From an uncultured Eubacteriales bacterium (GTDB lineage Bacteria > Bacillota > Clostridia > Christensenellales > Aristaeellaceae): 64,000 bases of DNA. Below, piece after piece: positions 1 through 6,279 of this stretch. Numbering within the stretch: the stretch's first letter is position 1; each line of letters opens with the position of its first letter. The stretch is taken from NCBI GenBank assembly GCA_902781095.1, contig CACZHW010000014.1:1-64000 (forward strand), read 5' to 3'. The notes under the pieces are model-generated. The model searched no databases. It worked only from the letters and a program-made list of their open reading frames with translations, and was not told where the DNA came from. The translations under genes were made by a program, and so were the position numbers.

Positions 1-59
1 TGTATTCGACAGCCACTGCCTCTTTTCCTTTTGGTTTCTTTTGGCTTTTTGCAAAAAAT

Positions 60-129
60 CTCACATCTTTGTCAGATGTGAGACTTTGTTGATGGTCTGG
101 AATCCGCAAAGGCGATACCTTTGCGGATT
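60..129. terminator. two consecutive stem-loops, probable terminator
   Basis: A 9-bp inverted repeat (60-68 with 74-82, 5-base loop) is followed by a perfect 12-bp inverted repeat (101-112 with 118-129, 5-base loop) and a short T-rich stretch. It lies just beyond the 3' end of the reverse-strand gene at 181-798. It would fit as a terminator for that gene or for a gene entering from the left. The T tract is short on both strands, so termination is inferred from the stems. Confidence 0.5.
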
Positions 130-180
130 TTCGTTTATTGACAGCGTTTCATCTCACCGGAAGATGGGATTTTTACATCC

Positions 181-798
181 TCAGCGCTTGGTCTTCTGGC
201 ACTCCCCGCTGAGAGCCGTCTCCATCTGTTCCCGGACGAGCGCCTTGTCCTGCTCCCTGTCGTTGGTCAGTTTGGCACCGTAGACGAGGATGCGCAAATC
301 CCGGCTGCCGTACTTGTTGTCCAACTCGTAGCAGACGCCGCGCAGCTCGTCGCTGAGCAGCTGAATCTGCGTGACGCCGCCTTTCCTGTACCGGTAGGTG
401 TCCGGGATCCCTTCCCAGATGTCCCATACGTCCTGCGCGGAGAGCGGCGTCTGCTTCCCCCAGCCGATTTCCGCCACGACGACGGTGCCCTTGTGCTTGT
501 AGTCCTGCGGAAGCCCTTTGGCGGACGGCTTTACGGTATAGAGGATGCCTTTACCCGCATAATCTTCATACTGATAGAACTTGCGCCCGCCGTGGCCTTC
601 GGGAGAGGTGCCCTCCACGTACCATTCATGGGTGTTGTCCCACTCCCAATGGCCCTGCGTAGCGTTGCCCGTGCTCCAGGTGGGCTTGAGAAACAGCGCC
701 AGGTTTCCGCTCTTCGCGGCAATGTCTGCACTGCCGGGTACAGGCAGCATTGCCAGAAGCAGGATGATGGCCAGAATGCTGAAGAAATGCTTGCTCAC
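181..798 (-). CDS. secreted protein of unknown function
   Basis: The 205-residue product starts with a clear Sec signal peptide: basic MSKH, a hydrophobic core to about residue 18, then a likely cleavage after GSA near residue 24. The mature part is soluble, rich in Trp and Tyr, with no motif I recognise and no membrane segment. The start is GTG, chosen because GGAGG lies about 8 bases upstream. AT-rich, -10-like TATAAT sequences sit about 80-100 bases upstream (around 885-900). No neighbour suggests a role. It is presumably exported; family unknown. Confidence 0.7.
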   Translation of the reverse strand: MSKHFFSILAIILLLAMLPVPGSADIAAKSGNLALFLKPTWSTGNATQGHWEWDNTHEWYVEGTSPEGHGGRKFYQYEDYAGKGILYTVKPSAKGLPQDYKHKGTVVVAEIGWGKQTPLSAQDVWDIWEGIPDTYRYRKGGVTQIQLLSDELRGVCYELDNKYGSRDLRILVYGAKLTNDREQDKALVREQMETALSGECQKTKR

Positions 799-988
799 AG
801 AGATCCCTCCTCCTGATATTCAATAACGGTCCACAGTGTGCAGGGTCTTCCCAGCAGATTCGCGAACGGTATCGGGGACAGGATTATTATAACATATTAT
901 ATAGGGTTGCAGCACGCTCAATCCGGTTCATTTTATAAAGAATAGAAAGAAAACCGCTTCCTTCAGGAAACGGCCGGGACATAAGAAA

Positions 989-1008
989 GGAGCTGCCGAA
1001 GCAACTCC
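989..1008 (-). terminator. terminator after the PepSY gene
   Basis: On the reverse strand GGAGTTGC and GCAGCTCC form an 8-bp stem (one G-U pair) around a TTCG tetraloop, followed by TTTCTT. It sits 20 bases past the stop codon of the PepSY gene. Confidence 0.65.
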
Positions 1009-1028
1009 TCCTATTAATCTTATTGATC

Positions 1029-1334
1029 TTAATCAAAGAAATCAAACATGTCATCAAAGTCGTCATCAGATTCATATCCGTGGTAGTCGACATCGTAGTC
1101 CCTGATCCTGCCGGTCGCAGCATCGACTTCCATGTCGTACTCGGTGTTACCCTTCCAGAACTCCAGCTCGAAGACCTTGCGCCCGTCGTCATAGTCCTGG
1201 TGTGCTTTGGTGAACCGGACTTCGCTTGCCTTGACGCCGGCGCGGTTCAGCGCCGCCTGCTTGGCTTGTTCCAGTGTCACATTGCCCTGCGCCAGAGCAC
1301 CGGCGGCCATCATGACCACCATCATGAAGTACAT
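1029..1334 (-). CDS. PepSY-domain exported protein, probably 5'-truncated
   Basis: From the sequence GNVTLEQAKQAAL to GRIRDYDVD the product is a recognisable PepSY domain (about 60 residues), ending in an acidic Asp/Phe-rich tail. PepSY proteins in Clostridia are usually exported and have a full signal peptide. Here only a short Met/Val/Ala stretch ending ALAQ remains in front, and no Shine-Dalgarno sequence precedes any of the possible start codons. The frame is open further upstream only because it runs antisense through the ferredoxin gene. I infer that the original 5' end was lost at a junction near 1324-1334. Confidence 0.6.
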   Translation of the reverse strand: MYFMMVVMMAAGALAQGNVTLEQAKQAALNRAGVKASEVRFTKAHQDYDDGRKVFELEFWKGNTEYDMEVDAATGRIRDYDVDYHGYESDDDFDDMFDFFD

Positions 1335-1509
1335 CGTCAATGAAGGATGCATCGGCTGCGGCCTTTGCGAAGCAACCTGCCCCGAGGTCTTTTCCATGAG
1401 CGATGCGGGTGTCGCCGTGGCTATTGAGGGCGAAGTGCCGGAGGAAGCGCTGGACACCGCCGCTGAAGCGAAAGAGGGCTGCCCCGTGGGCGCTATCGAG
1501 GAAGCGTAA
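1324..1509 (+). CDS. 4Fe-4S ferredoxin
   Basis: A 61-residue protein of standard small-ferredoxin length. Residues 8-20 carry C-I-G-C-G-L-C-E-A-T-C-P, and a fourth-cluster cysteine follows in KEGCPVGAIEE near the C-terminus, the Fer4 pattern for one [4Fe-4S] cluster. It would be a cytoplasmic electron carrier, plausibly for the flavodiiron protein whose first part follows 12 bases downstream. No ribosome binding site or promoter precedes the ATG, because the upstream DNA is a reverse-strand PepSY gene; the coding part looks intact but may be silent. Confidence 0.75.
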   Translation: MKYIVNEGCIGCGLCEATCPEVFSMSDAGVAVAIEGEVPEEALDTAAEAKEGCPVGAIEEA

Positions 1510-1521
1510 AGGAGAGCGAAC

Positions 1522-2028
1522 ATGAGAAAACACGTCAAGGGGAATGTCAGCTGGGTAGGCTTCATCGACTGGGAGTTGGAGAGCTTTCATGGGGACGACT
1601 ACTCCATCATGAACGGCTCCAGCCAGAACGCCTATCTGATCGAAGAAGAAAAAGGTGGGACAGAAAACAGCATTCAATTTGATATGTTTAATAGTTTAGA
1701 TGAACAGGTAAACAGCGAAGACAATGCAAGCCGTAAATTGATTACGATAAATAAAGTCAGCAAAGATCATTGGATTGTGACAGCGAAAATACCCGCGATA
1801 AATGATAAGAACTATGTCATTGAGAAACCCGTTCTTGGTTACTCAACCATATATAAAAACGTTGGAGAGCATTATGGCGAGACAGATCGGTGTTACGCTG
1901 GGGGAACAATAATCAATACCAAGATCCCTAAAACCGGGGATGACTCTAGACTGAAACTATTCCTTACATTGTTCTGTATTTCAGCTGTATTGCTTGCTTT
2001 GAATAAGAGAACTACTGATTCCAGATAA
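1522..2028 (+). pseudogene. chimeric ORF: flavodiiron-protein N-terminus joined to sortase-anchored tail
   Basis: Residues 1-44 (from MRKHVKGNVSWVG to YLIEEEK) match the start of an A-type flavoprotein (FprA/flavodiiron), which would normally continue into a beta-lactamase-fold and a flavodoxin domain of about 350 more residues. Instead, from about base 1655 the base composition turns AT-rich and the frame encodes an extracellular, Asn/Lys-rich stretch ending in IPKTGDD, a hydrophobic segment and a charged tail, which is a cell-wall sorting signal. GGAG lies upstream of the ATG. No known protein has this architecture, so I read it as two gene fragments fused in frame. Confidence 0.75.
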
Positions 2029-2143
2029 AATCTAGTTTTCTTATCAACATTACCTCACCAGATGATGTAATCATCTCCACTTTCTTTCACAGTCAAGCTA
2101 GTAACAATATCGTGACAGGCCCAAGCATTAACATATAAGAAGT

Positions 2144-2168
2144 GCCGTCCAGTTTCGTGCTGGACGGC
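2144..2168 (+). terminator. terminator
   Basis: GCCGTCCAG and CTGGACGGC form a perfect 9-bp stem with a 7-base loop, followed by TTTCTCT. It lies about 115 bases after the chimeric ORF and probably belonged to the sortase-anchored gene. Confidence 0.65.
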
Positions 2169-2723
2169 TTTCTCTATTCTGTTTGGTGATTTACCTTGCT
2201 GGAAGCTGTCAGAGTGCAAATAAAAAGGCCAGCGTTGTTCAAACCGGGGCCGCCAATAACGGCGAGATTCTCGGCAACGCTGGTCCTAAAAAGGTGGACA
2301 CGCGCGTTGCCCATGCCAATAATGACCTTGGGGCCTACGTCCTAGACGATCACGCCACTCCATCCGTTTGTGCCTGATTTCTTTTCCAGATAAGGCTGCA
2401 GGGAGGCCTGCAGTTCCCCGGGTGTACGTCCAAGACGGTCAAATCAAGCACAGAGCAGAGGGTCTCTGAGGCACCAGTGAATCGGAAAAAACCGTCGCTG
2501 TAAATACCCCTGCCTCTGCCGGAGCTCAGCAAACGCTCCCTGCAGTACCCTCGTTAACGCGGGTAGCCATGGGGCCAGACGTCCGAAACGTAAATGCCGA
2601 CCACTCCAAGGCCAATATAGCACAAGAGAATATTATCGTCAATTATCCTGCTGGGTTACTTTCTCTTCCAGTATTCTTCAGAAAAGAACAGCTCCAGCAG
2701 TTTTCTTTTCATTATTGAAAAAT
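2169..2723. other. gene-poor stretch, no supported gene
   Basis: About 550 bases between a terminator and the 3' end of the ArdC-like gene. A 64-codon open frame on the forward strand (2183-2377) and a 60-codon frame on the reverse strand (2350-2532) lack ribosome binding sites and recognisable content. The stretch may be remnant DNA of the mobile segment. Confidence 0.4.
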
Positions 2724-3587
2724 TTAAGCGAGATTCCCCTCGTTTTCAATATGTTGTGGTTTTTCTGCTGGATTATTCAATATATAGTCAACTGCCTTCT
2801 GGGCTTGACCGGCAGCGCTGACGATGAGCCGCTTGTCGTTCTTCAAAGCTTTGAGCCAGGAGGCAATGTAGGCTGCATTGTTCCGAAAGCTCTCAGGTGT
2901 CTCCAGACCAACCATATTGACAAGAAAGCTCGCCCCGATCTCTGCGACCAGTTCTTCCTTGCTGTAGGGTTCAGAGCCGAAGCCATTCTTGATCAGGCGG
3001 TTAAGCCTTTTCTCTGCACCAGAGCTGTGAATCGACTCGTGGCATGCTGCCGAATAGTACTCAGCGGTGCTGAGGAACCTGTCTTTGCTGGGCAGGGTGA
3101 TGGTGTCGCTCCCCGGTGCATAGGAGCACTCATTTCCTTCTGTCACATGAATGCCCTCACGATCCCAGTAGTCATGGAGGATGCGTTCAGCCTGCTCATT
3201 GGGCTGAACGCAATCGGGCAGGGGAGCATCATACCTTGGTTTGATGCCTTCCACTTGGCTGATATGAAAGACATTGAAGTATCGTAGCAGGGGCTTTCTC
3301 TCAGTCTCACCCGTGTCCTTGTTTTCAATGTCCAGCCATTTCCAGAAGACCACGATCTTGGACTTCTCACCTTTGCGCACATGCCCACCCTCGGCAAGTA
3401 CTTGGTTGAAGGTCACATGCTCTCCTGGCTGTTCAAGTAGCATCTGGTTCATAATGCTGTAGGGCTTTCCGGTGACGTGCGAGATGGCAAACCTGCTGCC
3501 AACCCATGGACGCTGCCAGGGTGCAGTACCGGCTTCCAACTCTGAGACAATCCTGTCTGTGATGTGCTGATACAGATCGAATCCCAT
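2724..3587 (-). CDS. ArdC-type antirestriction protein (ssDNA-binding plus zincin peptidase domains)
   Basis: 287 residues. The N-terminal part (about 1-115) is the DUF1738/ArdC_N single-strand DNA-binding domain, with the typical WQRPW and GKPYSIMNQMLL stretches. The C-terminal part is a zincin-like metallopeptidase with HESIH (residues 183-187) and a downstream EELVAEIGA helix (211-219) supplying the third ligand. ArdC proteins of plasmids and ICEs protect incoming single-stranded DNA during conjugation. AAAGGAG lies upstream of the ATG. It is the second gene of a two-gene reverse-strand unit, 23 bases after the unknown gene at 3611. Strong marker of a conjugative or mobilizable element. 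Confidence 0.88.
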   Translation of the reverse strand: MGFDLYQHITDRIVSELEAGTAPWQRPWVGSRFAISHVTGKPYSIMNQMLLEQPGEHVTFNQVLAEGGHVRKGEKSKIVVFWKWLDIENKDTGETERKPLLRYFNVFHISQVEGIKPRYDAPLPDCVQPNEQAERILHDYWDREGIHVTEGNECSYAPGSDTITLPSKDRFLSTAEYYSAACHESIHSSGAEKRLNRLIKNGFGSEPYSKEELVAEIGASFLVNMVGLETPESFRNNAAYIASWLKALKNDKRLIVSAAGQAQKAVDYILNNPAEKPQHIENEGNLA

Positions 3588-3610
3588 AGGGTTCTCCTTT
3601 CATTTGCATG

Positions 3611-4267
3611 TCAGGTATGAACACCGTAGCTGTAGCAAGGGTGCTTCAGACCGTCTTTTCCCAGGACTGCTGACTGGGACAAACACAACCCGCCGACAAT
3701 CCCAATGTCGCTGCCGCGCTTCTCGCGGAACCCAAAGTCATTGTTGAAGTCGCCGTACAGCTCAATCGAGCTGTCTTTCCACTGAAAGCTGTCACGCATG
3801 GCTTTAACGAAGGCCCGCTTCTTCAGCTTCTTGTCAGACAGATGCCTGATCTGTCTCTGGGCAGATTGGGTGAGGGTAATCTGCGCTTTGTAATGGACGG
3901 GATCAATGGCAGCGGCGAGGGAGGTGGGAACTCTCTGGTCAATGGCGTCAAAGACATCCATAAAAGGAAGCGTGAAGATTTGCCGGTTGCCAACCACTTC
4001 GGTATCCCCAAGCGGTAACAGCCAGAAGAGGGTGAAGCGCAGCCTGCCGTCATTCTGGCCATTGACTTTGAGGAAAGAGCAACCGTCATTCTCAAGGAAG
4101 GCCGTACTCAGCCACGGAGCCTGATTCAGCCAGGTTCTGAAACTTTGGCGGTTGATGTAAAAAGAACGGCTTTTGCCGTGCTCAAAGGAATTGGTGTGCA
4201 GAATGCAATACCCGAAGTCGGTGCCCTCGAAGCTTACGAGGATGCGTGTCTGATTGCTGATCATCAT
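3611..4267 (-). CDS. mobile-element protein of unknown function
   Basis: 218 residues, no signal peptide and no membrane segment. The fold looks mixed alpha/beta; a basic helical stretch around residues 150-165 contains KLKKRAFVKAMRDSFQW. I do not recognise the family. AAAGGAA precedes tandem ATG codons (4267 and 4264). It is upstream of and probably co-transcribed with the ArdC-like gene, in a segment ending at an integrase and tRNA, so it is presumably cargo or an accessory gene of that element. A partner role in antirestriction or establishment is only a guess from position. Confidence 0.6.
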   Translation of the reverse strand: MMISNQTRILVSFEGTDFGYCILHTNSFEHGKSRSFYINRQSFRTWLNQAPWLSTAFLENDGCSFLKVNGQNDGRLRFTLFWLLPLGDTEVVGNRQIFTLPFMDVFDAIDQRVPTSLAAAIDPVHYKAQITLTQSAQRQIRHLSDKKLKKRAFVKAMRDSFQWKDSSIELYGDFNNDFGFREKRGSDIGIVGGLCLSQSAVLGKDGLKHPCYSYGVHT

Positions 4268-4304
4268 TGATTCCTTTCTATTGATATGTCGAAAAACTGA
4301 GAAT

Positions 4305-4336
4305 GCCCCGACCGGTCTGCTGTGACCGGTCGGGGC
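4305..4336. other. perfect 13-bp inverted repeat upstream of two divergent genes
   Basis: GCCCCGACCGGTC and its exact complement are separated by TGCTGT. Each arm also contains the 8-base palindrome GACCGGTC. No T tract follows on either strand, so it is not a typical terminator. It sits between the reverse-strand element genes and the integrase. A second 8-bp hairpin (CCCGGGCA, 4437-4444 with 4449-4456) lies between it and the integrase start. Protein-binding site or leader structure is possible. Confidence 0.5.
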
Positions 4337-4539
4337 AACGCTTGTTTCTTGAGTTATAGGGGTCCAAAAATCTCACCGTTCAAAAATCCCCCTAATGGAG
4401 AGAGAAAGTGCATCGTCTGAATTGCCTCTCTATTTCCCCGGGCATGCCTGCCCGGGCGTATTGGAGAAGGCGGAAGAAGTTGCCGGTACTTTCATAGATT
4501 ACTGCCCAAAACGGCAGAATATGCAAAGGAGATTAAAGA

Positions 4540-5901
4540 ATGAGCGATAAAAATATTGCAACCAAGGCTGTTGTCAGCGAAGAGAAGCCAAGGTCGATGA
4601 AGACCTTTAAAAGCAGTCACCGTCTGCACGTCAGCCGCAATTCTGGCCTGTCGGCGAAAATGAACGACAAGCCAGAGAGTACAGAACCGCAAGACAGCAT
4701 CAAGGAAGCTGATCTGCAGCGGCTCATTTCAGGTGTAGCCGAGTCACTCAGGAAAGAATGGGGCAGGCTGCTGCCCTTTGAAAACTCAAAAGCAGAAGCC
4801 CAGGTCATACCGGGGACGGAGGAAGATGAGATGGCGAAGAGACAACGGGCCTGTGTAATGATCGATGACCAGCCTGTCTGGCTGTCTGGCGAAAGCCAGC
4901 AGGATCTGTTCGATGCCTATGTGGGCAGGCTCATCCGCTCAGGCAAACTTGCCGCCCCTGGATCTGTCCCAGAAAAGAAGGAGACACCCATGTTTGGCGA
5001 ATACTGCCTGAACTTCAATAGGCAGTATAAGAGCGGCCAGGAGTCCAATACCATTAAAATGCGCGAATATCTCACCAGAAGGCACTTGATTCCTCGCTTT
5101 GGTATGACACCTGTTGGTGACATTACAACCGGCGACCTTCAGCAGTGGTTCGATGGGCTGTGCAAGCAAGGGTACAGTCGCGAAGCGCTGTTGAAGATCA
5201 AAAACATCATGAGTCCTGTTCTGGACAGCGCAGTAGAAGACGGCATCATACCGAAGAACCCATTCAAATCGAAGCGGTTCAAGATCAACACTGACAAGGG
5301 TGGACACCATAAGGCCATACCCATTGAGCTGTTCAAGAGAATCAGGGAAGGTCTGCATGAGCTTCCAGACAATGAACGGAGAATGATGGCAATCCTTACC
5401 TATACTGGTCTTCGCCTTGAAGAAGTCCTTGGCCTCAGGTGGGAAGACATTGACATAGCGCACATGCGGCTGAGTGTTCGTCGGGCGGTTGTTCACGCGG
5501 ATCGCAACAAGCCCGAGATCAAAGCCCCCAAGACAGTCTCCAGCAGAAGGACGATACCGATCACAGAGGAGTTTGTGGAAGAGATGAAACCGCTTGGCAC
5601 CACAGGCTTTGTCCTGGGAGGAGAGGAGCCCCTCACCTATACCGTACAGAAGAAGATGTTCATTCGGATTCGCAAGAAGATGGGATTTGAGGGTTATTCA
5701 GCGCATGACTTTCGGGCAACCTGTGCGACCGTGTGGCGTGAAAACGGCATGCAGCTTGACCTGGTCAAGAACATGCTGGGCCATGGAGACACCGCTGTGA
5801 CAGAGAGATGTTATGTCAATTATCGTGACCAATCGATGGACGAAGCGCGGGATGTATTAAACTCGTTATTTGCCAAAAATCTTGCCAGCAAAGAGGGCTG
5901 A
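4540..5901 (+). CDS. tyrosine site-specific integrase
   Basis: 453 residues. After an atypically long, polar N-terminal extension (about 150 residues) come a SAM-like core-binding domain (about 150-245) and the catalytic domain. Catalytic residues are visible: R292 in TGLRLEEVLGL, the beta-hairpin K331, H389-x-x-R392 in AHDFRATC, H415 in LGHGDTAV and Y425 as nucleophile. AAGGAG lies 8 bases before the ATG. The gene ends 226 bases from the 3' end of tRNA-Thr, the usual place for an integrase of an element inserted in a tRNA. It presumably catalysed integration of the ArdC-bearing segment to its left. Confidence 0.92.
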   Translation: MSDKNIATKAVVSEEKPRSMKTFKSSHRLHVSRNSGLSAKMNDKPESTEPQDSIKEADLQRLISGVAESLRKEWGRLLPFENSKAEAQVIPGTEEDEMAKRQRACVMIDDQPVWLSGESQQDLFDAYVGRLIRSGKLAAPGSVPEKKETPMFGEYCLNFNRQYKSGQESNTIKMREYLTRRHLIPRFGMTPVGDITTGDLQQWFDGLCKQGYSREALLKIKNIMSPVLDSAVEDGIIPKNPFKSKRFKINTDKGGHHKAIPIELFKRIREGLHELPDNERRMMAILTYTGLRLEEVLGLRWEDIDIAHMRLSVRRAVVHADRNKPEIKAPKTVSSRRTIPITEEFVEEMKPLGTTGFVLGGEEPLTYTVQKKMFIRIRKKMGFEGYSAHDFRATCATVWRENGMQLDLVKNMLGHGDTAVTERCYVNYRDQSMDEARDVLNSLFAKNLASKEG

Positions 5902-5966
5902 AAAATCAAACAATAGCAGGAATTAACAAGCGTTATTTAACGACGGAATTGCCAAATTTCTTGCCA
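5870..5966 (+). repeat. paired TTGCCA repeats, candidate integrase arm-type sites
   Basis: TTGCCA occurs at 5870 and 5882, and again at 5949 and 5961. Each pair is spaced exactly 12 bases start to start, and both 18-base units fit TTGCCAAA-N4-TTGCCA. The units lie 79 bases apart, one inside the last codons of the integrase and one between it and the tRNA. Tandem short direct repeats close to an att site are typical of integrase arm-binding sites; function here is inferred. Confidence 0.5.
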
Positions 5967-5979
5967 AAAAGCGAAAAAT

Positions 5980-6017
5980 GCTGCCTGAGGCCGCTTTTGG
6001 AGGCGGCCTTGGGCAGC
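5980..6017 (+). terminator. stem-loop downstream of integrase
   Basis: GCTGCC...GAGGCCGC pairs with GGCGGCCT...GGCAGC to form a long, slightly imperfect stem with a TTTT-containing loop. It starts about 80 bases after the integrase stop. There is no real T tract, so its role as terminator is tentative. Confidence 0.4.
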
Positions 6018-6088
6018 AAAGAGTGACCCACACAGGGAGGGGAAACTGGCAGTGAAAACCCCAAAAAATCAAGTAATAATTGAAAAAG

Positions 6089-6124
6089 AAAAACCCCTGT
6101 ATTTCTAACAATACAAGGGTTTTT
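6089..6124 (-). terminator. terminator of tRNA-Thr
   Basis: AAAAACCCCTGTATT and AATACAAGGGTTTTT flank a short loop. Read on the reverse strand the stem ends in a run of T directly after the tRNA CCA end. Confidence 0.75.
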
Positions 6125-6127
6125 CAG

Positions 6128-6203
<76 letters not shown>

Positions 6204-6242: not shown

Positions 6243-6279
6243 GCCCCAAAATGGACTTTTTGCGGAATTGATCCGGCAT

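Follow-up and report, generated by a model that had tools for sequence, protein, structure and literature searches.

The window analysed here covers the first 64 kb of C14, a contig from the MAG of an uncultured Eubacteriales bacterium (2.7 Mb in 50 contigs, 89.6% completeness). The sequences it was compared with comprised 29 genomes of the same genus and 308 of the same family at the DNA level, and 200 genomes at the protein level. Near one end of the contig, a patch of about 1.1 kb (1029-2170) consists of pieces of genes: a PepSY-domain gene without its 5' end, an intact ferredoxin ORF, the beginning of a flavodiiron-rubredoxin gene and the end of a gene for a sortase-anchored adhesin. Beyond the patch lie a degenerate island and a tRNA-Thr(GGT) gene (Table 1). 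An earlier note on this DNA had described a patchwork with two sharp junctions. This description holds: identity to each parent falls from 75-97% to a random 25% within one base, at 1324/1325 for junction A and at 1652/1653 for junction B. All the pieces that the note listed are present; the ferredoxin and flavodiiron pieces, which it had counted separately, form a single natural piece, and its list lacked a third break, located within about 2029-2140.

Table 1. Features in and around the patch, in window coordinates
Feature	Position	Strand	Evidence and remarks
99-mer	1-99		Contig end, with terminator-like hairpin; the same 99 bases end contig C20, and 97 of them occur within C45
Unknown secreted-type ORF	181-798	-	Without Pfam match; 82% DNA identity to G006, with a PepSY neighbour there too
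PepSY-domain gene, 5' end cut off	1029-1325	-	Pfam PF03413, E=1.4e-8
Junction A	1324-1325		PepSY homology to 1325; ferredoxin homology from 1324
Single-cluster ferredoxin ORF, 61 aa, intact, no ribosome binding site	1324-1509	+	PF13370, E=5.9e-15; 88% identity to genes in other genera of the family
Flavodiiron-rubredoxin gene, codons 1-44 of 463	1522-1652	+	87-92% identical to genus g41
Junction B	1652-1653		In frame, probably by chance
Sortase-anchored adhesin 3' end, AT-rich (last domain, IPKTGD, membrane stretch)	1653-2028	+	Adhesin homologues
Two blocks (2140-2208, 2494-2661) common to G006	2140-2661		In G006 just outside the attachment-site copy adjoining tRNA-Thr(GGT)
Degenerate island: ArdC-type antirestriction gene (-), unknown ORF (-), tyrosine integrase (+)	2724-5901		ORFs and Pfam
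tRNA-Thr(GGT), integration target	6128-6203	-	tRNA gene

On its left side, junction A cuts a PepSY gene that had been noted as devoid of start signals, and comparison with three copies (on contigs C4 and C28 of the same genome and in the same-genus genome G006) bears this out: 45 of 60 positions are identical left of 1325 and 15-16 of 60 to its right. The PepSY domain is retained, while the first ~11 codons, with the start codon, the ribosome binding site, the promoter and the n-region of the signal peptide, are gone. PepSY genes are multicopy in this genome, with at least four copies (C4, C14, C16 and C28) that are 71-81% identical to the one in the window. On the right side, the ferredoxin matches the genes of two relatives, G263 and G136, at 58 of 60 positions from its ATG onwards and at 17 of 60 upstream. 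The observation that it lacks a ribosome binding site and abuts PepSY was also correct: relatives carry a GAGGAGG-type site before the ATG, and the window copy has PepSY sequence in its place. The alignments of the two parents overlap by only about 2 nt (AT).

The ferredoxin itself appears in good order, with a Fer4_13 domain that has its cysteine ligands and with CIGCGLCEATCP present. Its codons differ from those of the G263 gene by 18 synonymous and 3 non-synonymous changes, and so few of the latter imply little decay and a recent arrival. The flavodiiron piece stops abruptly: identity to the relatives in genus g41 is 119-121 of 132 positions over 1521-1652 and then 16-17 of 60, which is the chance level, in agreement with the earlier statement that the first 44 codons are what is left. 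The complete metallo-beta-lactamase and flavodoxin domains of a flavodiiron protein (about 400 aa) are absent, and the stretch has no Pfam match. As the ferredoxin and flavodiiron genes are contiguous in contig C98 of G002, and thus natural neighbours, we regard 1324-1652 as one piece. In relatives, the operon also includes a D-lactate-dehydrogenase-like gene and a cupin. The patch resembles this flavodiiron-rubredoxin operon of the family in keeping the order of ferredoxin and flavodiiron genes, and differs from it in having 44 of the 463 flavodiiron codons and none of the upstream genes. A search of the contigs of the bacterium's own genome, which the earlier note had proposed as a check, yielded neither the rest of the flavodiiron gene nor any other gene of the operon, the best match to the dehydrogenase-like gene being 37%.

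Elsewhere in the family, this operon shows other irregularities. Directly downstream of the ferredoxin, G136 and G263 carry the gene of a large serine recombinase (L158 5297-6847 and L159 12888-14459), which apparently displaces the flavodiiron gene; in G136, phage tail-type genes follow it. We considered junction B as a possible serine-integrase attachment site and rejected this, because both relatives break right after the ferredoxin stop and not at flavodiiron codon 44. The g41 flavodiiron gene on contig C7 of G217 (L123 1501-1632) has an in-frame TGA near its start and may be broken too.

The ferredoxin-flavodiiron piece and its chromosomal surroundings have different closest relatives. 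The backbone genes murA and glgP, which adjoin the patch, have 89% identity with G006, against 74-79% with G002 and G014 and 66-72% with genera g41 and g51. The piece shows the opposite ranking, with 88-92% identity to g41 and g51 and 71-85% to G002 and G014, its own-genus counterparts, from which it follows that the piece is a recent arrival, or a contamination, from another genus; by this sequence comparison, it is foreign. The presence of parts of the operon in G002 and G014 might otherwise have suggested a native ferredoxin-flavodiiron operon that was worn down at its original site by deletions to the left and right, but the reversed ranking and the absence of every other operon gene from the genome make this explanation highly improbable.

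At junction B, base composition changes together with homology. The GC content is 56.5% at 1324-1652, 37.8% at 1653-2028 and 63.8% at 6301-64000, and the C-termini of adhesins from at least ten loci of the family align from codon 44 (.GG.E.SI...) to the IPKTGD anchor. The AT-rich, sortase-anchored tail joined in frame, as first reported, is therefore upheld, and the drop in GC is real. The resulting fusion ORF encodes 168 aa, made of the 44 flavodiiron-rubredoxin codons and the last domain and anchor of the adhesin. With Cna-B/SpaA-like sortase-anchored adhesins the tail shares this last domain and the LPXTG-like IPKTGD motif, followed by a hydrophobic stretch and a charged tail (NKR), and it is 36-47% identical to their C-termini. 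In contrast to them, the fusion has 38% GC and neither signal peptide nor extracellular domains, its N-terminus being flavodiiron sequence. No source of the tail was found among family genomes, phages, plasmids and viral contigs; from its composition, it is probably foreign too.

Given an open frame of 168 codons ending in a conserved sortase motif, the fusion might be taken for a functional surface protein, or the patch for a gene-shuffling cassette. We give this view hardly any credence, given that a sortase substrate would need the signal peptide that is missing here, that the flavodiiron part ends before most of the catalytic domain, and that no copy exists in the other genomes, phages and plasmids searched. 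Moreover, a join falls in frame one time in three, and the in-frame state of junction B is probably due to chance.

The earlier note had named full-length homologues with the same domain order in other genomes as a result that would overturn it. They were looked for and not found: the two parts of the fusion ORF occur together in none of 200 genomes at the protein level and in none of 308 at the DNA level. Likewise, no genome of the genus (n=29) or family (n=308) carries both sides of junction A or B, although each side is found separately, and phages, plasmids and viral contigs contained no fusion, neither junction, and no viral relative of the tail or of the ferredoxin. Its proposal of non-homologous joining gains support from the sharpness of the junctions, their absence from every other genome searched and the different phylogenetic sources of the pieces.

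The main rival explanation is that the junctions are artefacts, formed by chimeric library molecules or by a misjoin near the contig end that brought together DNA from two or three species living side by side. We rate this explanation as a serious possibility, if the less probable one. The sequence comes from a MAG in 50 contigs; a contig end, itself a repeat, is 1.3-2.1 kb away from the patch, which has three breaks within 0.8 kb. The donor of the ferredoxin-flavodiiron piece, another genus of the same family, may share the habitat, so that a library chimera fits equally well. On the other hand, the overlap at junction A is far too short to be a shared k-mer of assembly size, which makes a k-mer-driven misjoin unlikely there; any chimera would need chimeric molecules. 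It is unlikely as well that chimeric joins arose twice, independently, at a distance of 328 bp and both survived in contig sequence, and the contamination estimate of the MAG is 0.5%. On balance, we judge it likely that the junctions are real. As to the contig end itself, the terminal 99-mer common to the window start and C20 suggests a short-read graph with k=99. It belongs to an intergenic repeat of about 97 bp with a terminator-like hairpin, present in at least three copies in the genome (window 1-99, the end of L036, and L037 88-184), that breaks the assembly.

Next to the patch, the chromosome has the features of an integration hotspot. The integrase gene of the degenerate island ends 226 bp from tRNA-Thr(GGT). 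In G006, a 5.5-kb island with an integrase is flanked by a copy of the tRNA 3' end on one side and by the complete tRNA-Thr on the other, with an attachment-site duplication of about 90 bp. Integrases were also located near tRNA-Thr in G021 and G005 by tblastn, as in G006, and in G012, G013 and G026, where their presence was judged by ORF start only. That integrases adjoin tRNA-Thr(GGT) in several genomes of the genus (loci L078, L079, L083, L086, L092 and L095) identifies this gene as a hotspot. The window thus resembles known tRNA-gene hotspots with degenerate islands in having an integrase beside the same tRNA that is used, with attachment-site duplication, by the islands of relatives. It departs from tRNA-integrated islands in that no second attachment site is present in 1-6100, the sole other match of the site in the genome being 79% over 77 bp at tRNA-Ser genes, and in that the recognisable island does not include the patch. 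The suggestion that the patch is an element end is accordingly only roughly right: it is situated beside a tRNA-Thr island, but outside the segment shared with G006 (2140-2661), and no attachment-site copy delimits it.

Within this shared segment, block 2494-2661 is 83% identical to G006, where it precedes a thioredoxin-like gene, and is non-coding in appearance; a structured RNA was considered and rejected, with no Rfam match and a folding z-score of -0.01. On the other side of the island, synteny breaks at 6263-6277, between tRNA-Thr and murA, where this genome has either been rearranged or contains a further suspect join. In G006, the two genes are on different contigs, and murA lies beside tRNA-Thr in no other locus of the genus that was checked.

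Taken together, we lean towards the patch being non-functional debris: short foreign fragments captured at an unstable spot beside the tRNA-Thr hotspot by illegitimate recombination, leaving dead genes behind. In this scenario, tRNA-Thr(GGT) would repeatedly receive integrase-carrying islands, and short foreign fragments would have been joined to the chromosome beside it. About 330 bp would derive from a flavodiiron operon, of the nitric-oxide/oxygen detoxification type, in another genus of the same family, and a third source would have supplied some 380-490 bp from the 3' end of an adhesin gene rich in AT. These joins would have cost PepSY its start, the ferredoxin its ribosome binding site, the flavodiiron gene nine tenths of its length and the adhesin nearly everything. 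The comparisons show directly where the breakpoints lie, that the ferredoxin-flavodiiron piece has its affinity outside the genus, that this assembly has no operon elsewhere and other genomes no such junctions, and that the setting is a hotspot. We infer from the sequence the presence of the joins in the cell, their order, their mechanism and the lack of function.

The kind of event is either already known or an artefact. Illegitimate recombination produces junctions mostly of 3-10 bp microhomology, with insertions or deletions that average about 1 kb (PMC3240628). In homology-facilitated and double illegitimate recombination, described in Streptococcus pneumoniae, Acinetobacter baylyi and Pseudomonas stutzeri, short foreign segments are likewise gained with loss of resident sequence at non-homologous breakpoints; the inserts are some hundreds of bp to 1 kb long (PMC3240628). 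The size of the patch fits, and the patch shares with such insertions a foreign segment with non-homologous junctions. At junction A, where both parents can be compared, the overlap of about 2 nt is shorter than the 3-10 bp usual for the homology-facilitated form, and no homologous anchor was identified. Because no Ku gene was found, Ku-dependent end joining is unsupported.

If the joins are not real, the lesson concerns gene calls near contig ends of MAGs, such as the 168-aa 'fusion protein' here, which need to be checked against reads. If they are real, the patch offers a clear recent example of foreign scraps trapped beside an integration hotspot, as raw material for chimeric genes. More tentatively, and with considerable doubt, it may point to a single tRNA hotspot at which several short foreign fragments of different species were captured, and to recurrent uptake and non-homologous insertion of such scraps in uncultured gut bacteria.
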